A stretch of 64,000 bases of DNA, taken from the NCBI RefSeq assembly GCF_004785795.1, contig NZ_SRRO01000001.1, positions 2,976,001-3,040,000 on the forward strand, read 5' to 3'. How positions within the stretch are numbered: position 1 is the first letter of the stretch; each line of letters begins with the position of its first letter. This document shows positions 53,065 through 64,000 of this stretch, one piece after another. The translations under genes and the position numbers were made by a program. This stretch comes from Nocardioides eburneiflavus (GTDB taxonomy: Bacteria; Actinomycetota; Actinomycetes; Propionibacteriales; Nocardioidaceae). The notes below the pieces were generated by a model. It was not told the DNA's origin. It ran no database searches and saw only the letters and a program-made list of their open reading frames with translations.

Positions 53065-53137
53065 TCCCCTGTAGCTCAACTGGCAGAGCATTCGGCTGTT
53101 AACCGGAGGGTTGTTGGTTCGAGTCCAACCGGGGGAG
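53065..53137 (+). tRNA. tRNA-Asn (anticodon GTT)
   Basis: Full cloverleaf: acceptor TCCCCTG / CGGGGGA, D-arm GCTC-AACTGGCA-GAGC, anticodon arm TTCGG-CTGTTAA-CCGGA with GTT at 53098-53100, variable GGGTT, T-arm GTTGG-TTCGAGT-CCAAC, discriminator G. 73 bases; CCA is not encoded. Its 3' end is the likely integration site of the element to the right. Confidence 0.97.
53112..53137 (+). other. Probable attL core (tRNA-Asn 3' end)
   Basis: The T-arm and acceptor end of the tRNA is the usual att core for tyrosine integrases inserting into tRNA genes. The integrase gene begins ~190 bases away and points towards it. No second copy is present in the window, so attR must lie beyond 64000 if this reading is right. 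Confidence 0.5.
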
Positions 53138-53142
53138 CGGGA

Positions 53143-53185
53143 AGAGGGCCTCTGACCTGGGCAAACGCCCAGGCAGGGGCCCTCT
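53143..53185 (+). terminator. Hairpin after tRNA-Asn
   Basis: Bipartite stem AGAGGGCC / GGCCCTCT (53143-53150, 53178-53185) with an inner CCTGGGC-AAAC-GCCCAGG. It begins six bases after the tRNA and probably terminates its transcript. It may belong to the element rather than the original locus. Confidence 0.7.
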
Positions 53186-53322
53186 GAGATTTGAATCTGA
53201 TGGCGAAACTGTCCAGAAACAGGCCAGAAACGCCCGTGGCCAAGGCCCCGAGAACGCGCTGCGCGGAGGCAGAATGCACCCGGGGATCGGGCGCTCCCGG
53301 GGGACTTCGTGGGGCGACACTT

Positions 53323-54486
53323 TCAGGTGACGGGCCGGAACTTCTCGAGATGGACCGTCAGATCGGGCGCCACCTTGGCCTTGTGAACGTAGAAGTCGCG
53401 GGTGATGTCACTGTCTTCGTGACCAAGTTGAGCCTGGGCAGCGTCGATGCCCACTTCACGGTCAATGAGGGTGGCCACTGACCTGCGGAAGGTGTGGAAG
53501 GTGACCCAGTCGTAGGCGGTGTCGTCGACTACCTGGTTCCACATCCGCTCCCAGTTCGAGATCTGCCGCCAGCTTCCGCGGCGGGTCGGGAACACGGCGC
53601 CGTGCGGGTTGGCGTGGTTCTCGACCTGACGCCGTAGCAGGATCCCGACGGCGAACGGTGGAAGAAGCAGAGTGCGGTAGCCGGCGCTGGACTTGGTCCA
53701 CGGTTGCCGGAAGGTGCCCTCACCGGTCTCGGTGATGATGGTTCCGGACACGGTAAGTGTGGGAGGCGTGGCTCCCAGATCGATCTCGGAGTAGATAAGC
53801 GCGCCGATCTCGCCGATGCGACAGCCGGTGCCCAGGATGAGGTCGACAGCGTCCATGAGATCGGTGGTCGGGCGTGGGCCCGGTCGCTTGCTGCTGGTCG
53901 ACTCTGCGACGAGGCTGCGAACGTCCTGGATCTGGTCCATGTCGAGGTACTCGATCTCGCGTCGCGGTTTCGAGATACGCGCAACGTCCCGCACCGGGTT
54001 CGAGGCGATGACGTCGTGCCGAACGGCCACGGCGAACATCCCGTGGAGGACCTTGCGGAGCATCGTGGGGCTGAAGCCAAGCGCGGCTCGATCTTTTACG
54101 ACGCGGTCAAGGGTGCTCGTCCTGCAATCGCGCAGCCGTCGCTCGCCGATCACGGGCACGATCTGGTTGTTCACCGTGCTGCGGTACGCCTTAAGGGAGT
54201 TCGTAGCGACCTGCTGCGCCTCCTTCTCTCGCAGCCAGAAGGCTGCGAGTTCAGCCACCGTGGTTAGCGGCGTGAGCTCGTTATCGCTGGCCTCGGCTCC
54301 GTTGAGCTCTTGGAGCTTCCTGATGAGAGCGGTGCGAGCAGCCTGGGCGCTATCAGCGCGGGCGCGGAGGCGTGCCACTCGGCCACTGAAGTACACATAG
54401 TTAGCGGAGGCCTCATAGGTGCCGGCGGCGGTCTTGGACACGCCGACCGCGCCCCATGTGCCTGGCGGCATCGGCGGGCGGGGCAT
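53323..54486 (-). CDS. int: Tyrosine-type site-specific integrase
   Basis: A 387-residue phage-type recombinase. N-terminal AP2-like/SAM-like arm-binding region (residues ~20-150), catalytic domain with Arg in LGTGCRIGEIGAL (~239), HTFRR (~325), LGHED (~355) and the Tyr nucleophile in DFYVHKA (~368). It integrates and excises the element at the tRNA-Asn. It reads towards the tRNA, the classic arrangement, with ~185 bases of att DNA between. Base use is less GC-biased than in chromosomal neighbours, fitting transfer. Confidence 0.95.
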   Translation of the reverse strand: MPRPPMPPGTWGAVGVSKTAAGTYEASANYVYFSGRVARLRARADSAQAARTALIRKLQELNGAEASDNELTPLTTVAELAAFWLREKEAQQVATNSLKAYRSTVNNQIVPVIGERRLRDCRTSTLDRVVKDRAALGFSPTMLRKVLHGMFAVAVRHDVIASNPVRDVARISKPRREIEYLDMDQIQDVRSLVAESTSSKRPGPRPTTDLMDAVDLILGTGCRIGEIGALIYSEIDLGATPPTLTVSGTIITETGEGTFRQPWTKSSAGYRTLLLPPFAVGILLRRQVENHANPHGAVFPTRRGSWRQISNWERMWNQVVDDTAYDWVTFHTFRRSVATLIDREVGIDAAQAQLGHEDSDITRDFYVHKAKVAPDLTVHLEKFRPVT

Positions 54487-54594
54487 CAGCCGACCCCACT
54501 CGATGTGGGCGGGGCGATCGCGAACGGGTACTTGCCGATCATGCGGGCCTTCCGGATGGCGCGTTGTGCGGTCTTTCGTCAGAGGGTAGGCGTG

Positions 54595-54900
54595 CTAGGC
54601 AGTGCGCGGATCGGTGTGTTGGTCTAGGTAGGTCTCCACCTCCGTGCGTCGGTAGCGAAGAGCGCCGCCGACCTTGATAGCCCGAGGGCCCTGCTTGCGG
54701 GTGCGCCACTGGTAGAGCGTGCCTCTGGGAATCCCGAGCCATTCTGAGACCTCGTCGATGGTCAGGAGTGGGTCGTAGCCCGCCGTCACGATCGACATCG
54801 CCGGGGCTTCTACTTGTCGGTCGACCCGTGTATCGCGGGCTTTGCGAGCACGTTCTGACGCTTCACGTGCTTGTTTCTGTGCTGCCGTCGGTCGTGGCAT
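54595..54900 (-). CDS. Excisionase-like helix-turn-helix protein
   Basis: A 101-residue protein: a charged N-terminal helix (AQKQAREASERARKARDTR) and a MerR/HTH_17-like domain PLLTIDEVSEWLGIPRGTLY (residues ~43-62) then KVGGALRYRRTEVETYL. This is the common AlpA/Xis fold of small directionality factors on integrative elements. Start: ATG 54900 with GGGAG nine bases upstream; a shorter start at 54798 is possible. It lies upstream of int on the same strand. Confidence 0.82.
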   Translation of the reverse strand: MPRPTAAQKQAREASERARKARDTRVDRQVEAPAMSIVTAGYDPLLTIDEVSEWLGIPRGTLYQWRTRKQGPRAIKVGGALRYRRTEVETYLDQHTDPRTA

Positions 54901-55219
54901 CGGGCATCCACTCCCTTTCTCTCGCCGGTGACTGCTTACGGTCACCTAGGGGAAGGAAGGGGCCCGCAGCGATCAACGCAGGACGAACGCGTCCGCACTG
55001 ACCCATGCGCAACGGACCCGCTGTGTGATGCCGCTGGACGGATCGCCCTGCGCCTCCGCGTGGAGTCGGTAGCTGCGGCAAGGCGGTCTTCGACATAGTT
55101 CCTCGCCGTGGTGGGGCGCCCCCGGACCGGTGCCTGCCGTGGTCCGGGGGCCGCGTCCACGAGCACCATGCTGGCGCCGGCGATGGGTGGAGAACGCTGG
55201 CCGGTAGGGTGCGTCGCTG
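54901..55219. other. Intergenic control region of the element
   Basis: Divergent gap between the Xis-like gene and the tandem-HTH gene. It holds a perfect 11-bp inverted repeat GCCCCCGGACC (55118-55128) / GGTCCGGGGGC (55141-55151) with a 12-base loop, a plausible operator or terminator. No convincing coding frame. Confidence 0.55.
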
Positions 55220-55666
55220 ATGGTTTCCGGCATCGATCCTTCAGAACTGCGTGCGGCCCGCGAGAAGGCGGGTCTGACACAGCACGAGCTCGCGCGTCTC
55301 GTCGGTGCGGCCGGGGGAGAGCGCATTTCGCGCTGGGAGCTCGGCACGTCAGTGCCTCGGCCAGATTTCCTGGTCAAACTCGCGAGAGCCCTCGACATCC
55401 CCACGCTGAGGCTCGTTCGCCTCGACGGTGAGATTCCCGATCTCAGGGCGCTGCGTCTGCAGGCAGGGCTCACCGTGCCCGACCTGGCTGCGGCCGTGAA
55501 CGTGGCTGTGCCGACGTACTACGCGTGGGAGCAGGGTCGCTGGGCACGACTCCCTGCCTCCAGGACGCTCGAAGAGCTCGCTCGGGCATTCGGGGAGTCC
55601 GTTGAAGTGGTCGCCGCTGCGTTCAAGGAAGCCCAGCGGCAGCGCCGCCGGCTTGGAGAGATCTAG
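55220..55666 (+). CDS. Tandem XRE-family helix-turn-helix regulator
   Basis: A 148-residue protein with two consecutive Xre-type domains: LRAAREKAGLTQHELARLVG ... RISRWELGTSVPRPDFLVKL (residues ~10-60) and LRALRLQAGLTVPDLAAAVN ... TYYAWEQGRW (~76-115), then a short charged tail. Probable repressor of the element's int/xis or pilus genes (inference from position). ATG start at 55220. Confidence 0.85.
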   Translation: MVSGIDPSELRAAREKAGLTQHELARLVGAAGGERISRWELGTSVPRPDFLVKLARALDIPTLRLVRLDGEIPDLRALRLQAGLTVPDLAAAVNVAVPTYYAWEQGRWARLPASRTLEELARAFGESVEVVAAAFKEAQRQRRRLGEI

Positions 55667-55988
55667 TTTCGGCTGACAAGTGAGTGCCCGTACACGGGTT
55701 TGACCGCAATCCACAGGGGCAAAATGGTCCCGGAAGAGTCGAGCGATCTGTGGTCCCATGGACTCCGGATAGTTCGGAAGCGTTGATGTTCAGTCCCGTC
55801 GGGGGGATTGGGCCGCGAGAGCTCTTCTGGTCAGGACTCGGGCGATGACATCTCGGAATCGGTCACTGTTGACAGCCGAAAGGCTCGATAGAAAGGCACT
55901 AGTGTGCCAGTATCGAGATGGGCTCATGGTGATCGCTCGGGCCCGTCTTGACACGTAGGTGATCGAGACACGAAAGGACTCGGGATCC
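55667..55988. other. Promoter region of the Tad-like operon
   Basis: No gene seen. TTGACA occurs at 55869-55874, followed by a TATCGA-like box further down; GGCAC-TAGT-GTGCC (55894-55907) is a short palindrome that could bind the tandem-HTH protein. AT-richer than its surroundings. Confidence 0.4.
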
Positions 55989-56669
55989 ATGTCGCTGAAC
56001 ACCGCACAAGGGGCCGCGGGCGAGGCGCCCCCCAACAACCGACCCAGGCTTGCTCTCAACAACAGTCCACGCCTTAAGCAGCGCCGCAGGCCGTGGGTGT
56101 TCGCACTTTGTGCAGCCCTTGTCGCCGCAGGCGCGCTGGGTACCGCGTTCGCCTTCACATCGGTCAACGACACCCAGGAGGTTCTCGTGGTCAGCCGTGA
56201 CATCAAGCGCGGCGAGCCCATCGAGGCCGGGGACCTCTCGGTGGTGCGGGTGAGCGTCGACCCGGCGCTGAGCCCGGTCGCCGCGAGCAAGAGCGCCGAG
56301 CTTGAAGGCAGCCGCGCCGCCGTCGACCTGTGGGCCGGCACTCTCCTCGCCGAGGCGGCCGTCACCGAGAGTTTGGTGCCAGGGGAGGGGGAGTCCCTGG
56401 TGGGCATCAGCCTCACCCCTGCGCAGATGCCGTCCGAGCCGCTCTACTCCGGTGACGCCGTCCGGATCGTCACCACGCCCGGCGACCAAGGCGAGGTCAC
56501 CAACGAGGACCCGGTCACGGTCGAGGCAGTCGTCGTGGGCGTTAGCCGCGTGCCGGAGACCGGCGGGACCGTTGTCGACGTCTCTGTCCCCGAAGGCGAC
56601 GCCGCCGACCTGGCCGCCCGCGCCGCGACCGGGCGGGTGGCACTGGTCTTGGACACGCGGGAGCGCTGA
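55989..56669 (+). CDS. SAF-domain, CpaB/RcpC-like pilus assembly protein
   Basis: A 226-residue protein: short cytoplasmic N terminus, one membrane helix (VFALCAALVAAGALGTAFAF, residues ~38-57), then an SAF domain (VLVVSRDIKRGEPIEAGDLS, ~66-85, to LVGISLTPAQMPSEPLYSGD) as in the Flp pilus protein CpaB/RcpC. Located on the outer face of the membrane. First gene of the operon; ATG 55989 after AAAGGACTCGGGATCC. Shorter than proteobacterial CpaB (~280), which is usual in actinobacteria. Confidence 0.8.
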   Translation: MSLNTAQGAAGEAPPNNRPRLALNNSPRLKQRRRPWVFALCAALVAAGALGTAFAFTSVNDTQEVLVVSRDIKRGEPIEAGDLSVVRVSVDPALSPVAASKSAELEGSRAAVDLWAGTLLAEAAVTESLVPGEGESLVGISLTPAQMPSEPLYSGDAVRIVTTPGDQGEVTNEDPVTVEAVVVGVSRVPETGGTVVDVSVPEGDAADLAARAATGRVALVLDTRER

Positions 56670-56672
56670 GCG

Positions 56673-57527
56673 ATGGCGCTGATCGTCCTCGCGTCCGCCA
56701 GCGGTTCGCCCGGCGTCTCCACTACGGCGCTGGGACTCACCCTCAACTGGCACCGTCCCGTGCTCCTGGTCGACGCCGACCCGACCGGGTCCTCCGCGGT
56801 CTTCGCCGGCTACTTCCACGGCACCCAGGAACCCACCGGCGGGCTGATCAATCTCGCCCTCGCGCTGCGCGAGGGGACACTGGCTGCCGCCCTTCCGCGC
56901 GAGACGCTGCTGCTGGATCCCGAGGCCCCGGCCGAGCGGGCGCCCTGGTTCCTGCCTGGCATTCGCGCCCACGAGCAGGCCCCGAGCCTGCTGCCGCTGT
57001 GGGAGCCGCTTGCCGAGCAGCTGCGCGCGCTGGACCGCAACGGCCAAGACGTCATCGTCGACGCCGGCCGGCTCGGTCTGGCGGGTTGGCCGCAGCCGGT
57101 TGTCGCTGCCTCCGACTTGACCCTGCTGGTCACCCGCAGCTCGCTGCCCGCGCTGGCCGGTGCCCGCTCGTGGGCCAAGATGCTGCGCGACCAGTTCGCC
57201 GCCGCCGGGGGCCTCTCGCGACTCCGCCTCCTTCTCGTCGACGAGGACCGCCGCTGGCCGGCGATGCCCACGGGCGTCCCGCGGGTGCGTCCCTACACGC
57301 CGCGCCACATCGCCAAGGCGCTCCAGATCTCCGTCGCAGCATCCGTGGGCTGGGATCCCGAGGCCGCGGAGGTCTACTCCCACGGCGCCCGCAAGCCCCG
57401 CAAGTTCGAGTCCTCCGACCTGGTGCGCAGCTACCGCACCGCAGCGTCCCTGATCCACTCCGTCCTCACCTCCCACCAGGCCGCCCTCGCCCACCCCACC
57501 TCACTTACGAGCGGAGGCCGCGCATGA
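56673..57527 (+). CDS. TadZ/CpaE-like MinD-type ATPase with a degenerate P-loop
   Basis: A 284-residue ParA/MinD-fold protein. The N-terminal P-loop is ASGSPGVSTTALGLTL (residues 8-23): the Lys of both the deviant and the classic Walker A is absent (GVST in place of GKT). Walker A' LLVDADPTGS and later VIVDAGRLGL and LLVTRSSLPALA are present. TadZ proteins place the pilus machine and often have altered P-loops. Three bases after the CpaB-like gene and overlapping the ATPase gene that follows by ATGA. Confidence 0.8.
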   Translation: MALIVLASASGSPGVSTTALGLTLNWHRPVLLVDADPTGSSAVFAGYFHGTQEPTGGLINLALALREGTLAAALPRETLLLDPEAPAERAPWFLPGIRAHEQAPSLLPLWEPLAEQLRALDRNGQDVIVDAGRLGLAGWPQPVVAASDLTLLVTRSSLPALAGARSWAKMLRDQFAAAGGLSRLRLLLVDEDRRWPAMPTGVPRVRPYTPRHIAKALQISVAASVGWDPEAAEVYSHGARKPRKFESSDLVRSYRTAASLIHSVLTSHQAALAHPTSLTSGGRA

Positions 57528-59263
57528 GCACCAACGGACAGCCCGGAGCCCAGGACCCCGAGCCGCTCCGCGCCGACGAATGGCTCGCGGCGCGACACGC
57601 AGACCAGCCCGGCGGTACTGGGCAGCGCTCCCCGTTTGCCCGCGGCCGCGGCACCAACGGCAACGCGCCGGCCACGCAGCCACCGCCGCCGCCGGGGCCG
57701 GGGCCGACCAGCGAGGACCACGACCCGACGTCGCTGCCGATCTTCGCCGGCGCCTGGACCAGCGAGGATCAGCTGCCGGGTCGCACCCGCTCGGACTTCG
57801 CCCTCCGCCCGCTCGTCGCCAGCCCCGACGACCAGCCGCACGCGATCGCCGCCACCGACTACTACGACGGCGTCAGCGTGGGGGAGGTCGAGCTGGACTG
57901 GGAGCTCATCGCCCAGTACCGGACCGAGATCTCCTCCCGGCTGACCGCCCGGCTGGACAAGGAAGGCGGCCGGGTCACCGACGATGACCGCGAGCAGATG
58001 GGCCTCGACGTCATCGAGGAGTTCCTCAAGTCCGAGGCCGAGACTCTCGTCTCGACCGGCCGTCCGCCGTGGAGCCGCCAGCAGGAGAACGCCCTCAAGG
58101 CCGCGCTCAAGGCCGCGCTGTTCGGTCTGGGCCGGCTGCAGCCGCTGGTCGAGCGCGAGGACGTGGAGAACGTCATCGTCATCGCCCGCGGCCCGGCGTG
58201 CGCCGTGTGGCTGGAGCTCGTCGACGGCACTCTGGTCGAAGCAGCCCCGATCGCCGACTCCGAGGACGAGCTGCGCGAGTTCCTCGCCGACCTCGGCTCC
58301 CGGCAGAACCGGCCCTTCACCGAAGCGCGTCCGCACCTGGACCTGCGCCTGCCCGGCGGCGCCCGGCTCGCGGCCGGCTCCTGGGTGATGGCCTACACCT
58401 CGGTGGTGATCCGCCGGCACGGGATGCGCGAGGTGTCGATGGACGAGATGGTCTACGACCGCAAGGCGTGCGGCGCGGTCCTGGCCGACTTCCTCGCCGC
58501 CTGCGTCCGCGCCGGCAAGAGCATCGTCGTCTCCGGGGTCCAGGGCTCGGGCAAGACCACCTGGGTCCGCGCGCTGTGCTCGTGCATCCCGCCGTGGGAG
58601 ATGATCGGCACCTTCGAGACCGAGTTCGAGCTGCACCTGCACGAGCTGGTCGACCGGCACAAGATCGTCCACGCCTGGGAGCACCGGCCCGGATCCGGCG
58701 AGGTCGGCATCGACGGCCGACAGGCCGGTGAGTTCAGCCTCGAGGAGGCCATCCACCACTCCTTCCGGTTCAACCTCGCCCGCCAGATCGTCGGCGAGGT
58801 CCGCGGCCCGGAGGTCTGGAACATGCTCAAGGCCATGGAGTCCGGCCCGGGCTCGATCAGCACCACCCACGCCCGCAGCGCCGAGCACACCATCGAGAAG
58901 CTCGTCTCCTGCGCCATGGAGAAGGGCCCGCAGGTCACCCGCGAGCTCGCGATCAGCAAGCTCGCCGCCGCCATCGACATCGTGATGTACCTGCGCTCCG
59001 AAGTCGTCCCCAACGGCGACGGCACCTTCCGCAAGCACCGCTGGGTCGAGGAGGTACTGGTCGTCCAGCCGAGCATCGACGCGGCCCGCGGGTATGCGAC
59101 CACCCCGATCTTCGCCCCGAACCAGCTCGGCCACGCCGTCGCCACCGGCAAGCTCGACAACTTCCTCGCCCAGGAGCTCGCCCGCCACGGGTTCGACCTC
59201 GAGGCGTACAAGGCCGAATCCGCTGCCTACGAGGGGGCAAACCCGGGGGTGGCGATCTCATGA
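57524..59263 (+). CDS. TadA/CpaF-type secretion ATPase
   Basis: A 579-residue secretion ATPase of the type II/IV family that powers pilus assembly. A Pro-rich, disordered N terminus (residues 1-100), a CpaF N-terminal domain (LDKEGGRVTDDDREQMGLDV), then the motor: Walker A VSGVQGSGKTTWV (~335-347), Asp box ETEFELHL, Walker B IVGEVRGPEVWNM (~422) and His box STTHARSAEHT (~446). Starts at an ATG overlapping the TadZ-like stop. The longer N terminus is typical of actinobacterial element-borne copies (inference). Confidence 0.92.
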   Translation: MSTNGQPGAQDPEPLRADEWLAARHADQPGGTGQRSPFARGRGTNGNAPATQPPPPPGPGPTSEDHDPTSLPIFAGAWTSEDQLPGRTRSDFALRPLVASPDDQPHAIAATDYYDGVSVGEVELDWELIAQYRTEISSRLTARLDKEGGRVTDDDREQMGLDVIEEFLKSEAETLVSTGRPPWSRQQENALKAALKAALFGLGRLQPLVEREDVENVIVIARGPACAVWLELVDGTLVEAAPIADSEDELREFLADLGSRQNRPFTEARPHLDLRLPGGARLAAGSWVMAYTSVVIRRHGMREVSMDEMVYDRKACGAVLADFLAACVRAGKSIVVSGVQGSGKTTWVRALCSCIPPWEMIGTFETEFELHLHELVDRHKIVHAWEHRPGSGEVGIDGRQAGEFSLEEAIHHSFRFNLARQIVGEVRGPEVWNMLKAMESGPGSISTTHARSAEHTIEKLVSCAMEKGPQVTRELAISKLAAAIDIVMYLRSEVVPNGDGTFRKHRWVEEVLVVQPSIDAARGYATTPIFAPNQLGHAVATGKLDNFLAQELARHGFDLEAYKAESAAYEGANPGVAIS

Positions 59264-60177
59264 CCGCCTTCCTGCCCGCCGTCTCCGGGGCGCTCATCGT
59301 CACTGGCCTGATCGGCATGGTCTACGCGCTGATCCCCGCACCGCCGAAGCCGCCGCGGCCCGCCCGGACCGTCACCCCGTTGGGTCGGGCGGGTGGCTGG
59401 TTCGCCCGGCTCAACCCGCGCACCCGGATGCTGGTCATCGGCGGCGCTGTCGCCGGCCTCCTGGTGGCCCTGCTGACCGGCTGGGTGATCGCGATCGTGC
59501 TCGTCCCGGCCGCGATCGTGGGCATCCCGTTGCTGCTCACGCCCCCGCCGGCGGCCGCGAGCGTCGAGAAGCTCGAGGCGCTCGAGGAGTGGACCCGGTC
59601 GCTGTCCGGCAAGCTGACGGCCGGACAGTCGCTGCGCTCGGCTCTCGTCAAGTCGCTGCAGTCGGTGCCGGCGCCCATCGAGCGCGAGGTCGGGCTGATG
59701 GTCTCCCGGCTCTGGAACAACACCGCGACGACCGAGGACGTGCTGCGAGCCTTCGCCGAGGACCTCAACGACTCCACCGGCGACGTGGTGGCCAGCCAGT
59801 TGATCCTCGCCGCCAGCGGTCGCGGGCAGGCCGGCCTGGCCAAGGCGCTGGACGCCCTCGCCGAGACCGTCGCCGCCGAGGTGCGCGCCCGCCGCCAGAT
59901 CGCCGCCGACCAGGCCAAGCCGCGCACCACCGCCCGCACGGTCACCGTGATCACCCTCGGCGTCCTGGGCCTGCTCGCCCTGACCGGCGACTACATCGAG
60001 CCGTACGGCAGCCCGCTCGGCCAGGTCATCCTCGCCGTCTTGCTGAGCGCCTACGTGGCCGCGCTGCTGTGGATGCGCCGGATGGCGGTCGCCAAGCCGC
60101 TCCCGCGCTTCCTCGACCTCCAGGCCCGCAACGCGCACCGAGCGGCGCACGGGGAGAAGCAAGGAGCACTCGCATGA
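59260..60177 (+). CDS. TadB-like pilus assembly membrane protein
   Basis: A 305-residue T2SSF-domain membrane protein: N-terminal helices (residues ~5-25, ~65-90), a cytoplasmic T2SSF domain (LEEWTRSLSGKLTAGQSLRS, ~107-126; SQLILAASGRGQAGLAKALD) and C-terminal helices (~228-245, ~252-272). Together with the next gene it forms the inner-membrane platform on which the ATPase acts. ATGA overlaps at both ends. Confidence 0.88.
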   Translation: MTAFLPAVSGALIVTGLIGMVYALIPAPPKPPRPARTVTPLGRAGGWFARLNPRTRMLVIGGAVAGLLVALLTGWVIAIVLVPAAIVGIPLLLTPPPAAASVEKLEALEEWTRSLSGKLTAGQSLRSALVKSLQSVPAPIEREVGLMVSRLWNNTATTEDVLRAFAEDLNDSTGDVVASQLILAASGRGQAGLAKALDALAETVAAEVRARRQIAADQAKPRTTARTVTVITLGVLGLLALTGDYIEPYGSPLGQVILAVLLSAYVAALLWMRRMAVAKPLPRFLDLQARNAHRAAHGEKQGALA

Positions 60178-61091
60178 CCGGCCTCCAGCTCGCGCTGGCC
60201 AGCGCCACCCTCCTTGGCCTCGCCGTTGCCCTGCTCGTGTGGCGCCTGGCCCCGTCCGACCCCGACCTCACCGACGCCCTGGACCGGCTCTCGCCCGGCC
60301 ACGTCGTGCCCCGCCGCAGCGCCGGCCCGCTCGGCGTCGAGGAGAGCACCGAATCCGGCTCGCTCGTCGACCGGGTCGGCGTGTGGGCGATCAAGAACCT
60401 GCCCGGGGGAGCGTGGGCACACACGCCCCGCAAGGACCTGGCCATCCTCCAGATCAGCGAGACCAGGTTCTACGGCGAGAAGGTCGTCTGGGCGCTGCTC
60501 GGCCTGGCCATGCCGCCGCTGTTCGCGGCGTTCTTCGCGCTGATCGGGCTCCCGCTCCCGTTCGCGATCCACACCTTCGGGTCGCTCGGGCTCGGCGCAC
60601 TGTTCTGGTTCATGCCCAACTACAACGCCACTGACGACGCCAAGAAGGCCCGCATCGAGTTCAGCCGCGCCCTGGGCGCCTACATCGACATGGTCGCCAC
60701 CGGAGTCCGCGACGGCTCCAGCGGCCAGCAGGCGCTCCGTTCCGCGGCCGAGGTCGGCGACACCTGGGTGTTCAAACGGATCGAGAGCGAGCTGCGCCGC
60801 GCCCGCTACATGACCCGCGCCCCCTGGGACTCCCTGCACGGGCTCGCCGATGACCTCGGCGTCCCCGAGCTCGACGACCTCGCCGACATCATGCAGCAGT
60901 CCGGCCAGGACGGCGCCCAGATCTACAGCAACCTCCGCGCCCGCGCCGCCGCACTCCGCTCGGCGATGCTCAGCGCCGAACTCGGGAAGGCCAACGCCGT
61001 CTCCGAGCGCATGTACATCCCCGCCAGCCTGCTCGGCATCGTCTTCATGGCGATCCTCGTCACCCCGTCGATGCTCCGGCTCGCGACCTAA
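60174..61091 (+). CDS. TadC-like pilus assembly membrane protein
   Basis: A 305-residue T2SSF-type protein, partner of TadB: N-terminal helix (LALASATLLGLAVALLVW), two central helices (~108-150), a T2SSF domain (IEFSRALGAYIDMVATGVRD, ~160-179; LDDLADIMQQSGQDGAQIYS) and a final helix (YIPASLLGIVFMAILVTPSM). Overlaps the tadB-like stop by 4 bases. Confidence 0.88.
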   Translation: MTGLQLALASATLLGLAVALLVWRLAPSDPDLTDALDRLSPGHVVPRRSAGPLGVEESTESGSLVDRVGVWAIKNLPGGAWAHTPRKDLAILQISETRFYGEKVVWALLGLAMPPLFAAFFALIGLPLPFAIHTFGSLGLGALFWFMPNYNATDDAKKARIEFSRALGAYIDMVATGVRDGSSGQQALRSAAEVGDTWVFKRIESELRRARYMTRAPWDSLHGLADDLGVPELDDLADIMQQSGQDGAQIYSNLRARAAALRSAMLSAELGKANAVSERMYIPASLLGIVFMAILVTPSMLRLAT

Positions 61092-61146
61092 CACAAACGC
61101 CATCCCCGGACACCCCGAACTCCACCACCCAGAAAGGAACAACCCG

Positions 61147-61353
61147 ATGTTGAAGTTCCTCATCACCCTTCAGGTGACGGCCCTCGCCGTGATCGCCAGC
61201 ATGGACGACCGCATCGTCAAGCACCGACGCGGCGAGCGCGGCTCGGTCACGATCGAGCAGGTCATCTGGGCCGGCGCGGTCATCCTCATCTTCGGCATCG
61301 TCGTCGCCGCGATCACCGCATACGTGACCAGCGAGGCCGGAAAGATCCAGTAG
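61147..61353 (+). CDS. Flp-type pilin-like protein with a prepilin cleavage site
   Basis: A 68-residue protein. RRGERG precedes SVTIE, giving a type IV prepilin site G32|S33 with Glu at +5 (E37), followed by one hydrophobic helix (VIWAGAVILIFGIVVAAITA). This fits the major pilin of a Tad system. Unlike classic Flp it also has a hydrophobic stretch before the site (residues 3-18). GAAAGGAACAACCCG precedes the ATG, a clear ribosome-binding site after a 55-base gap, so it may be translated at higher level than its neighbours. Confidence 0.82.
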   Translation: MLKFLITLQVTALAVIASMDDRIVKHRRGERGSVTIEQVIWAGAVILIFGIVVAAITAYVTSEAGKIQ

Positions 61354-61361
61354 GTCCATCC

Positions 61362-61757
61362 ATGTTCTCCAGCTCTCGCCGCCGACGCCGGGACGAGCGC
61401 GGCTCAGTGGCCCTCCAGATGGCCTTCCTGATGCCGGCGCTCTTCGCGGTGATGTTCCTCGGTGTCCAGGGCGCGCTGTACTACCACGCCCGCGAAGTAG
61501 CGCTCGCGGCCGCGCAGGAGGGCGCACGCGAGGCGGGCAGCGAGAACGGCACCCACGAGTCCGGAGTGGCGACCGCGAACGGCTTCCTCCAGGACGCCGG
61601 CGGATCCGACGTGATGACGTCGACCAGCGTCTCCGGGACACGGACCACGACAACGGCCACGATCACCGTCACCGGCAAGTCCATGAGCGTGATCCCAGGC
61701 TGGCACGTGACCGTCCGCCAGAGCGCCAGCGTCCCGGTCGAGAGGCTCACCGAATGA
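61362..61757 (+). CDS. TadE-like pseudopilin
   Basis: A 131-residue protein: basic start (RRRRRDERG), the G14|SVALQ processing-like site (Gln at +5), one helix (MAFLMPALFAVMFLGVQGAL) and an extracytoplasmic Ser/Thr-rich domain ending VTVRQSASVPVERL. TadE domain pattern. Eight bases after the pilin gene and overlapping the next one by ATGA. Confidence 0.82.
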   Translation: MFSSSRRRRRDERGSVALQMAFLMPALFAVMFLGVQGALYYHAREVALAAAQEGAREAGSENGTHESGVATANGFLQDAGGSDVMTSTSVSGTRTTTTATITVTGKSMSVIPGWHVTVRQSASVPVERLTE

Positions 61758-62212
61758 TGGGGCAGAGCATCTGGGCACGCGCCTTCAACCGCATCCGGGA
61801 CGAGCGCGGATCGGTGGCCATCGAGGCCGCGATCGGCGTCCCGGCGTTCGGGCTGTTCGTGGCGATGATCATCCTCGGCGGCCGCGTCGAGATCGCCAAG
61901 CAGTCCGTGGAAGCGGCCGCCTACGAGGCGGCACGGGCGGCCTCGATCGAGCGAACCCGGAGCGAGGCGATCGGCGCAGGCAGGTCCTCGGCCGCAAGCA
62001 GCCTGCAGGACCAGGACGTGAACTGCACCAGCACGAACATCACGGTCAACGCTGCGGCGTTCAACGCACCGATCGGGGACACCGCCCAGGTGAACGTCAC
62101 GGTGACCTGCACCGTCAACCTGTCGGACCTGAGCATCCCCGGCGTACCCGGCACCCGCACGATCACCGCAACCGCGAGCAGCCCCGTCGACGCCTACCGG
62201 GAGCGCCGATGA
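61754..62212 (+). CDS. TadE-like pseudopilin (second)
   Basis: A 152-residue protein with the same layout: DERG followed by SVAIE (Glu at +5, residue 24), one helix (AAIGVPAFGLFVAMIILGG), then an extracytoplasmic domain with a Cys pair (NCTSTN, VTCTVN) and many Thr/Val. Overlaps its neighbours by 4 bases on both sides. Confidence 0.82.
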   Translation: MMGQSIWARAFNRIRDERGSVAIEAAIGVPAFGLFVAMIILGGRVEIAKQSVEAAAYEAARAASIERTRSEAIGAGRSSAASSLQDQDVNCTSTNITVNAAAFNAPIGDTAQVNVTVTCTVNLSDLSIPGVPGTRTITATASSPVDAYRERR

Positions 62213-62655
62213 TGAGGCACCCGGCCCAGAAATTGTTGCGGCGACAGCGCGACGAGCGCGGCGCCATCAGCGTCTGGTTCGCCACCGCGTCATTGGTGAT
62301 GATCATCCTGGTCGGGATGACCGTCGACGTCGGCGGCAAGGTGCACGCCCAACAGCAGGCCCGCAGTGCCGCGGCCCAGGCCGCCCGCACCGGAGCCCAG
62401 GAGGTCCAGGGCTCCGCGGTGCGCGGAGGGGACCTGCACGTCGACATCACCGCCGCCAAGTCCGCCGCGCAGAGCTACCTCAACGCCGCCGGCGTGGAGG
62501 GCAGCGTCACCGTCGTCAACGGCGACACCCTCATCGTGCGCACCACCGACACCTACGACAGCAAGTTCCTCGGGATCATCGGGCTCGACTCGATGAGGGT
62601 CACCGGGGAGGCGTCTGCACGGCTCATCCGCGCCCAAGGAGGCACCGAACAGTGA
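62209..62655 (+). CDS. TadG-like / pilus-assembly pseudopilin (third)
   Basis: A 148-residue protein: RQRDERG then AISVW, one helix (ATASLVMIILVGMTVDVGGK, residues ~25-44), HAQQQARSAAAQAARTGAQE and a beta-rich end. Resembles Rv3654c/TadG-type helicase-secretion-neighbourhood proteins. The fifth position after the ERG motif is Trp, so prepilin processing is doubtful. Confidence 0.78.
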   Translation: MMRHPAQKLLRRQRDERGAISVWFATASLVMIILVGMTVDVGGKVHAQQQARSAAAQAARTGAQEVQGSAVRGGDLHVDITAAKSAAQSYLNAAGVEGSVTVVNGDTLIVRTTDTYDSKFLGIIGLDSMRVTGEASARLIRAQGGTEQ

Positions 62656-63956
62656 TCACTGCGCAGAGCACGCCCACCAGTCCCACTGCCGGCCAGCGGC
62701 TGACCGGGCTCCTCGCCACGGTCGCCGTCCTCGGCATCATCATCGGCCTGCCGGCTCTCTTCCTGGCGATCGGAGCCAACCCGATCCCCGACCAGCCGCC
62801 GAGCTGGGAGAGCGTCAAGGACGCACTCCTCGCACCCGACGACGGCACCCTGATCCTGGGCCTGTTCAAGGTGATCGGCTGGACCGCGTGGGCCTTCATG
62901 ACCCTCAGCCTGGTGGTGGAGACCATCGCCCGGCTCCGCAGGGTCGAGGCGCCCAAGCTGCCGGGTCTTGGCCGTCCGCAGGCCGCGGCCCACGGACTGA
63001 TCGGACTCGCTGCCCTGCTGTTCATCGCCGCGCCCATCGCTGCGCCGATCGCTGCGCAGGCCGCCAACGCCGGCCCGGCCGCCGCGTCCGCGCCAGCGGC
63101 GGTGGGCCATGTCCAGGCCGGGACCGTCGACCAGACGCCCGCCCAGCACGGCGTGAAGGGCGAGGCGAAGCAGGAGCGTGCGACGGTCGATCACTCGGTC
63201 AAGCCGGGGGAGAGCCTGTGGTCGATCGCTGAGGACCACTTCGGTGACGGCGCGCGCTACAAGGAGATCGCCGAGCTCAACCGCGACCTCATCGGCTCCC
63301 GGCCCAGCTTCCTCGAGCCCGGCTGGGTGCTCAAGCTGCCCGCCCCGAACAGCGGAGCGCCCTCCAACACCAACTGGCACGCCTACACCGTGCAACCCAA
63401 CGACACACTCAGCGACATCGCCTACGACGAGCTCGGCGACGCCGACCGGTGGCCGGAGATCTACAAGGCCTCCACCGGCATCACCCAGCCCGGCGGCGCC
63501 CACCTCGCCGACCCCGACGTGATCGACGTCGGCTGGAGGCTCACCATCCCCGGAGCCCAGACACCTGCCGGCCACGACGACCGGCAGCAGCAGCCGCAGC
63601 CTCGCGAGGACAAGCCCGAGACCCCCGCCGAGTCCAAGACCGAGCAGCAGCCGGTCGACACGCCGGCCGAGGAGACTCCGCCGGTCCCCGAGACCGAGGC
63701 CCCGGAGACCGCCGCGCCCGAGGTCCCGCAGGCCGAGGAGCCGAGGGCGCCGGCCGCCGACGTCGACCAGGTCGACGAAGCCGACGACTCGATCCTCGAG
63801 GCGCCCTGGGTCCTCGCCGGTCTGACGGGCGGGGGCGTGCTGCTGTCCGGGGCACTGCTGATGGCGCTGCGGTCCCGTCGGCGCTCCGCCTACCGGAACC
63901 GGCCGCCGGGTCGAGCGATCGCCGCCCCCCGCCCGAGCTGGCGCCGGTGGAGATGA
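62652..63956 (+). CDS. LysM-domain membrane protein, frameshifted at its 3' end
   Basis: The visible frame encodes 434 residues: membrane helices at ~20-42, ~72-95 and ~115-137, two LysM domains (VKPGESLWSIAEDHFGDG ~180; VQPNDTLSDIAYDELGD ~247), a Pro/Glu-rich linker and a final helix (~380-402). LysM binds peptidoglycan, so it may anchor the pilus in the wall. The frame ends after RPSWRRWR, but the DNA after the C6 run at 63925-63930 reads PELAPVEMTLNATGAAAAAT in another frame, the expected continuation of the family (long LysM/BTAD proteins). One missing C, or -1 slippage, explains this. Confidence 0.82.
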   Translation: MITAQSTPTSPTAGQRLTGLLATVAVLGIIIGLPALFLAIGANPIPDQPPSWESVKDALLAPDDGTLILGLFKVIGWTAWAFMTLSLVVETIARLRRVEAPKLPGLGRPQAAAHGLIGLAALLFIAAPIAAPIAAQAANAGPAAASAPAAVGHVQAGTVDQTPAQHGVKGEAKQERATVDHSVKPGESLWSIAEDHFGDGARYKEIAELNRDLIGSRPSFLEPGWVLKLPAPNSGAPSNTNWHAYTVQPNDTLSDIAYDELGDADRWPEIYKASTGITQPGGAHLADPDVIDVGWRLTIPGAQTPAGHDDRQQQPQPREDKPETPAESKTEQQPVDTPAEETPPVPETEAPETAAPEVPQAEEPRAPAADVDQVDEADDSILEAPWVLAGLTGGGVLLSGALLMALRSRRRSAYRNRPPGRAIAAPRPSWRRWR

Positions 63957-64000
63957 CGCTGAATGCGACCGGTGCCGCCGCGGCCGCCACCGTGGAGTTC
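63932..64000 (+). CDS. Continuation of the LysM protein in the shifted frame
   Basis: From CCC at 63932 the frame reads PELAPVEMTLNATG and a poly-Ala stretch to the window end without a stop. Composition and residues fit a continuing coding region; it joins the upstream frame if one C is added to the C6 run (GCC GCC CCC CCG CCC GAG). Confidence 0.7.

Follow-up and report, generated by a model that had tools for sequence, protein, structure and literature searches.

A Tad pilus operon at the left end of a probable integrative and conjugative element of Nocardioides eburneiflavus is a candidate mating pilus of actinobacterial type IV secretion elements

The window analyzed here, a stretch of 64,000 nucleotides from the 5.0-Mb genome of Nocardioides eburneiflavus (G000:C1:2976001-3040000, C1 being contig NZ_SRRO01000001.1), contains near its right end a tRNA-Asn gene, which is followed by genes for an integrase and by a Tad/Flp-type pilus operon. 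This locus probably forms the left border of an integrative and conjugative element (ICE) of 241 kb at tRNA-Asn, with the Tad operon as a module that is dedicated to the transfer system of the element. Comparison with related elements makes it likely that the operon encodes the dedicated mating pilus of actinobacterial elements with a type IV secretion system (T4SS). The operon is not a stray passenger on the element. Its fixed place and direction, its replacement without loss and its recurrence beside different conjugation genes all argue that it is a part of the transfer system.

The tRNA-Asn (GTT) gene (53065..53138, plus strand; ARAGORN and Rfam), which adjoins dnaG, is the integration target. 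When the genome was searched with the tRNA and its downstream DNA, the 35-bp 3' end of the gene (attL core, 53104..53138, plus strand) was found again to the right of the window at C1:3270341-3270375 (attR), with 35 of 35 bases identical and a distance of 241,237 bp between attL and attR. A preliminary description, which had been made from the sequence of the window, had proposed to look for such a second copy. A diverged copy of the terminator is also present behind attR, and no third copy of the 34-base att core with up to six mismatches occurs within the 280 kb read. An inner tRNA-Cys was rejected as att site, its 3' end occurring once in 280 kb and the tRNA-Cys call itself being probably spurious. 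In the nearest relative by DnaG (G030, 94%) the site is empty, the tRNA-Asn gene and the right-flank DNA being 2.1 kb apart. This flank (L120 4802-6604) corresponds to C1:3271023-3272665, i.e., it begins 0.65 kb to the right of attR in the window's genome, and in G019 the homologous flank DNA begins 64 bp past the tRNA. As a side observation, the DNA to the right of attR carries a second insertion, about 51.6 kb long (C1:3272666-3324260), parts of which are similar to a contig of G051 and to DNA of the element at C1:3241550-3253041 (82-87%).

The preliminary description had regarded one outcome as incompatible with mobility, namely, the lack of a second att copy together with the same Tad operon at a conserved chromosomal site next to dnaG in all relatives. 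TadA was detected in 79 of 116 relatives (E 1e-30), and dnaG in 67 of the 69 genomes of the genus. The spacing of the two genes is 7 kb in the window's genome, and the nearest spacing in any other genome is 142 kb. These values refer to genomes with both genes on a shared contig, a list that was compiled by eye; many drafts have them on different contigs, which leaves those genomes undecided. A fixed chromosomal Tad locus beside dnaG was rejected on the basis of the spacing of at least 142 kb elsewhere on shared contigs and of the empty site in G030. The proposed mobility is supported by a site-specific integrase, direct att repeats at a tRNA gene, an empty site in a near relative, and genes for a relaxase, a coupling protein and VirB4 inside the element, as expected for an ICE.

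The T4SS operon begins about 7.5 kb to the right of the Tad operon end and was not visible in the window. It encodes a TrbL/VirB6 protein, a protein of the SCO6880 family, a VirB4-type ATPase, an M23 wall hydrolase and a VirD4-type coupling protein, and thus VirB4, VirD4, VirB6/TrbL and a wall hydrolase, the set expected for a Gram-positive conjugative T4SS. The profile scores are 1.7e-23 for TraG-D_C, 7.6e-17 for T4SS-DNA_transf, 4e-6 for TrbL and 1.3e-131 for the SCO6880 family, and M23 was also matched. VirB4 has a profile score of 7e-10 versus PDB 4ag5, and the NCBIfam matches of VirB4 and VirD4 fall below the cut-offs of that library. Two small candidate VirB8-like proteins (g032 and g033) have no profile match. 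A relaxase of the MobF type, which is fused to a helicase and a DnaG-type primase/TOPRIM region (1992 aa, C1:3074299-3080277, minus strand; TrwC 4.7e-84), is also encoded inside the element. Actinomycete integrative and conjugative elements (AICEs) use a TraB/FtsK translocase and lack a T4SS. An AICE with FtsK/TraB double-strand transfer was rejected, because a MobF relaxase and a T4SS are present (FtsK-like genes were not searched for over the whole element), and Tad as the sole transfer machine was rejected on the same grounds. Since the element has its own T4SS, the Tad pilus would assist the T4SS and not substitute for it.

The gene order given in the preliminary description, i.e., tRNA-Asn, int, xis-like gene, tandem-HTH gene and Tad operon, was confirmed by ARAGORN/Rfam and Pfam. 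The Tad gene order is the same in 12 of 12 tier-1 relatives (TadA identity at least 72%; here and below, up to 40 kb around tadA were read), and therefore the operon is not a chance arrangement. The tyrosine integrase (53323..54486; PF00589 1.1e-13, PF14659) and the excisionase-like HTH_17 protein (54595..54945; PF12728 2e-12) are encoded on the minus strand, and all further genes on the plus strand. These are the genes for a tandem-HTH (HTH_3) regulator (55220..55666; PF01381, two stretches), CpaB/RcpC with a SAF domain (55959..56669; PF08666 6e-9; TIGR03177 5.4e-8, below the NCBIfam cut-off), a TadZ-like ParA/MinD-type protein (56673..57527), the TadA/CpaF assembly ATPase (57524..59263; PF00437 (T2SSE) 2.3e-17; TIGR03819 4e-34, below the NCBIfam cut-off), the platform proteins TadB (59260..60177; PF00482 (T2SSF) 2.4e-7) and TadC (60174..61091; PF00482 2e-6), the 68-aa major prepilin Flp (61147..61353), two TadE pseudopilins (61362..61757, PF07811 1.3e-9; and 61754..62212, PF07811 4.4e-9), a TadG/TadE-like protein (62209..62655; PF07811, PF13400), and the LysM half of a LysM-BTAD protein (62652..63956; PF01476). 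The Pfam matches of CpaB, TadA, both T2SSF proteins, both TadE proteins, the TadE/TadG gene and LysM are above the cut-off. The best solved relatives of TadA are CpaF structures (1e-20), ahead of VirB11. Flp was assigned by the type IV pilin signal (class III) with the cleavage motif RG/SVTIE, and it has no profile match. Most of the pilins found in relatives retain the RG/S site, and six have QE where the Flp of the window has E at +5. Thus a TadA/CpaF ATPase and two TadB/TadC proteins are present together with TadE/TadG by profile and Flp by motif, as expected for a Tad/Flp system. The outer-membrane secretin RcpA is not expected in a single-membrane cell. Overlaps of four bases had been ascribed to nearly all junctions; between cpaB and btad, 6 of 10 junctions have them, so that "nearly all" was slightly too strong.

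The operon extends beyond the window. The LysM-BTAD gene, the second half of which is located at C1:3039947-3041935, is broken in this assembly by a frameshift at window positions 63940-63960. The LysM and BTAD parts are joined in 27 open reading frames of related loci, some of which are degenerate or cut by the locus end. The LysM-BTAD gene of plasmid pCHL (L150) is also frameshifted, at a different place in the gene, and these frameshifts could be real, variable or sequencing errors. A further protein, g23 (C1:3042784-3043683), looks secreted, has conserved cysteines and travels with Tad cassettes; it has no Pfam match and is a candidate pilus tip or adhesin. Its gene lies 3' of Tad in tier 1 and 5' of Tad in most other cassettes. 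The tandem-HTH gene directly precedes cpaB on pCHL and in 11 of the 12 tier-1 relatives that were read. The region between the two genes (55667..55958, plus strand) is strongly conserved in an alignment of nine elements and is a candidate promoter/operator; it contains CACTAGTGT. Another very conserved region, 5' of the T4SS operon at about C1:3049150-3049409, harbors the inverted repeat CGTCCCCCC...GGGGGGACG, and this region is also a candidate operator. A common operator for the Tad and T4SS operons is unsupported, the top shared 9-mer being G-rich and present in six of nine elements.

The linkage of Tad operons and T4SSs was determined in 116 genomes. A VirB4 relative (E 1e-15) is encoded within 70 kb on the same contig at 10 of 13 tier-1 TadA places, at 16 of 21 tier-2 places (TadA identity 45-57%), and at 6 of 69 distant places (below 40%). 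Conversely, TadA is found near 12 of 14 VirB4 relatives with at least 74% identity, and near four of eight with 53-57% identity, or five of eight if G056:C2 is counted, the Tad of which was overlooked with the TadA threshold of 1e-30 and was later seen on reading the locus. The counts are based on 104 TadA and 93 VirB4 entries; one and 14 second fragments of single genes, respectively, were removed before counting. For a wider test, 231 relatives were detected with a VirB4 alignment and the best 80 were retained, of which 40 loci (38 named genomes) were tested, 34 were dropped because they had less than about 20 kb upstream, five had already been examined and one (L165) was unused. At 38 of the 40 VirB4 loci tadA is located upstream, co-directional and 13-49 kb away on the same contig, among the TadA matches listed and with L215 counted with its TadA in two pieces. 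The two loci without tadA are L174, a remnant with PrgI and VirB4 alone within 10 kb, and L203, where the contig starts 20 kb upstream. The chance expectation is about 1 of 40, by simple arithmetic from the 2-7 TadA matches per genome of about 4.4 Mb among the matches listed. The linked loci span Nocardioides, Aeromicrobium, Knoellia, Flexivirga, Janibacter, Humibacillus, Ornithinimicrobium, Terrabacter and others. At six loci (G051, G033, L185, L188, L224 and L225) TadA is only 30-34% identical to that of the window, yet VirB4 is 64-76% identical, and the divergent TadA occupies the same place upstream of the T4SS. The simplest reading of these sequence identities is that the Tad cassette was swapped out but a Tad was kept. 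A role of the pilus in DNA transfer, which was one of the suggestions of the preliminary description, is supported by this linkage across elements.

Reading of individual loci revealed T4SS genes of the same kind and direction after Tad in 10 of the 12 tier-1 relatives; in the other two the contig ends (G037) or a relic is present (G023). The integrase has been exchanged in G056 and G023, which have a different integrase (24% identical) after tRNA-Leu. At the eight tier-2 places read (of 21) the relaxase is 5' of Tad on the opposite strand in seven, and T4SS genes lie within the stretch in five. TadA matches were also found in 186 plasmid records, 117 of them from Streptomyces and 29 from Rhodococcus. 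The circular plasmid pCHL of Nocardioides sp. QY071 has the backbone of the element, i.e., Tad, 30 kb of cargo with resistance genes, and then the T4SS, and its T4SS proteins are 85-96% and its relaxase is 91% identical to those of the element, the latter over nearly the whole length of the 1992-aa protein. Two Pimelobacter plasmids have a TadA with 85% identity. On pXCEL01 (Xylanimonas), pSGAir0127 (Micrococcus) and pYJNG (Microbacterium) related Tad operons are located beside genes that are annotated as conjugation genes and that have a different make-up.

Several observations weigh against a dedicated mating pilus. VirB4 relatives with less than 40% identity have TadA nearby in only 16 of 57 cases; since these mostly lack a nearby TadA, the rule holds for this class of T4SS and not for every T4SS. 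A clear exception is G050, which has a T4SS and lacks Tad throughout the 60 kb that were read there, and G100:C17 has a T4SS and no Tad in 27.8 kb, just 14 kb of which are 5' of VirB4. In G021 Tad was kept and the front of the T4SS was lost, so that only its rear part and the relaxase remain, and thus Tad and T4SS can part. The one stretch of a Streptomyces plasmid that was read (45 kb) contains Tad and no annotated T4SS. The TadZ-like protein was named by its position and its ParA-like start; it has a weak ParA-like match (E 0.03), no Pfam or NCBIfam match and nothing clear versus PDB sequences. Because of the split LysM-BTAD gene the window's copy of the Tad system may not be fully working. 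Finally, the element has no detected prepilin peptidase of its own, as TadV is not encoded in the Tad locus and the sole PF01478 match of the genome, at C1:4287731, lies outside the element, from where it could still serve the Tad pilus.

The main rival to a mating pilus is a Tad pilus that benefits the host cell in adhesion or biofilm formation and is carried by conjugative elements as useful cargo, without a role in transfer, which we consider unlikely. Tad pili are known adhesins. The tad locus of the Cutibacterium acnes plasmids is viewed mainly as a colonization factor in the respective papers, which also note the conjugation genes; Tad loci are in general often plasmid-borne and widely exchanged (PMC6668835); and G021 retains Tad despite a damaged T4SS. 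However, cargo would be expected to come and go in cargo slots, and the place and direction of Tad are fixed in 38 of 40 loci, whereas likely cargo, Gabija in this element and the resistance genes of pCHL, occupies the gap between Tad and T4SS instead. It is still less probable that linkage was simply inherited, i.e., that a successful ancestral backbone had both modules and that its descendants kept them without a working link. The distances of TadA and VirB4 are correlated (Spearman 0.59; reached by none of 2000 permutations; 38 pairs including the window's own), which is also expected from plain shared descent, and the tier-1 elements are closely related. Arguments against inherited linkage are the Tad cassettes with a TadA identity of 30-34% in the same position beside close T4SSs, and the related Tad operons beside differently composed conjugation genes on the three annotated plasmids mentioned above. 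The Tad genes, moreover, are under purifying selection (dN/dS 0.09-0.48, compared with 0.07-0.27 for five genes of the T4SS, at most six relatives being used per gene; flp and lysM left out). A pilus for DNA uptake is very improbable, although transformation of Micrococcus luteus requires tad genes (PMC4322843). The conserved position of Tad together with a relaxase, a coupling protein and VirB4 points to DNA export; no search for com genes was made.

For a mating pilus the following mechanism can be envisaged from the families of the encoded proteins. Integrase and att repeats would permit excision, the MobF relaxase would nick and carry the DNA, the coupling protein and the VirB4/TrbL T4SS would form the channel, and the M23 enzyme would open the wall. 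The Flp prepilin and the TadE/TadG pseudopilins may be matured by the prepilin peptidase of the host, and the pilus may be assembled by TadA, TadB, TadC and TadZ, whereby CpaB and LysM-BTAD would fix the assembly apparatus in the wall. By analogy with the type IVb pilus of the island PAPI-1, the pilus could catch a recipient and bring or hold it close enough for the T4SS. The operon is probably controlled by the tandem-HTH protein. With somewhat less confidence than for the mating function itself, we favor the view that in a whole class of conjugative elements of actinobacteria, whether integrated or present as plasmids, an exchangeable Tad cassette provides a true conjugative pilus of classical Gram-positive T4SSs. 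This pilus would catch the recipient and determine the host range as well as mating in liquid; LysM-BTAD would serve as its wall anchor and g23 as its tip or adhesin.

The nearest precedent is provided by the tad plasmids of C. acnes. This species belongs to the same bacterial order as N. eburneiflavus. In the description of p15.1.R1, pIMPLE-HL096PA1 and p09-9, a tad locus is placed near genes for VirB4, TcpC and an FtsK-like protein on a mobile element, and a putative pilin encoded by tad was recovered in the surface protein fraction (PMC5696575). In contrast to the present element, with which they are likened by description, these plasmids are linear, TcpC and FtsK-like proteins are named in that description and not the SCO6880/VirB4/MobF set, and the proposed role is mainly adhesion. 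PAPI-1 of Pseudomonas aeruginosa is a chromosomal conjugative island with its own type IV pilus that mediates transfer (PMC5297154), but it belongs to a Gram-negative species, and its pil genes are of type IVb, include a PilV tip and do not form a Tad operon. A mating function is inferred from the linkage described above, considering that Gram-positive T4SSs have been described without a conjugative pilus and the type IVb pilus of PAPI-1 does that job. T4SS-type ICEs of Actinobacteria were already known, and they share the MOBF/TrwC relaxase, the VirD4-type coupling protein and VirB4 as markers; however, the main text of that study contains no mention of Flp or Tad, "tad" occurring within a place name only (Ghinet et al., 2011; PMC3218068). 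Other actinobacterial Tad/Flp loci have a TadA-type ATPase of the same family, but 63 of the 69 distant TadA places are without a VirB4 relative by the criteria given above. Plasmid-borne Tad loci, too, were already known from an earlier report (PMC6668835).

A 2025 review states that Gram-positive systems do not encode conjugative pili, with Patescibacteria as a possible exception (PMC12857230), and an earlier review likewise points to surface adhesins (PMC6540685). Among open-licence PMC papers none was found that, judged by its title or the start of its abstract, presents Tad as a constant component of actinobacterial elements with a T4SS. The Tad operon as a near-constant, exchangeable module of such elements, as deduced here from sequence comparison, is apparently new. 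If Tad serves mating, this would alter the understanding of gene spread among soil, skin and degrader actinobacteria, it would provide a simple marker for recognizing such elements, and mating-pair formation would become testable by a single gene deletion.

The element also carries other cargo. A Gabija defence pair (C1:3045552-3048933, L007:552-3933; GajA 2.8e-160 and GajB 3.6e-122) is located between the Tad operon and the T4SS. The size of this gap varies from 0.9 to 13.9 kb in nine relatives, and together with Gabija in this element and the resistance cargo in pCHL this makes it look like a cargo hotspot. A candidate defence protein (PDC-S21 / DUF4917; C1:3073005-3074051, minus strand) adjoins the relaxase. 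The element may be composite, as a second, weaker integrase is encoded inside it (C1:3120798-3122042, minus strand; PF00589 1.5e-8). In the right part (C1:3167152-3267696) six genes were scanned, which encode a 2-hydroxyacid dehydrogenase, two aldehyde dehydrogenases, an FAD-binding protein, a cupin and a transporter binding protein, and this cargo looks catabolic from the predicted proteins. Two gene triplets, at C1:3223436-3226073 and C1:3233521-3236158, agree in the lengths of their products (293, 331 and 255 aa) and, judged by these lengths, are probably a duplication.

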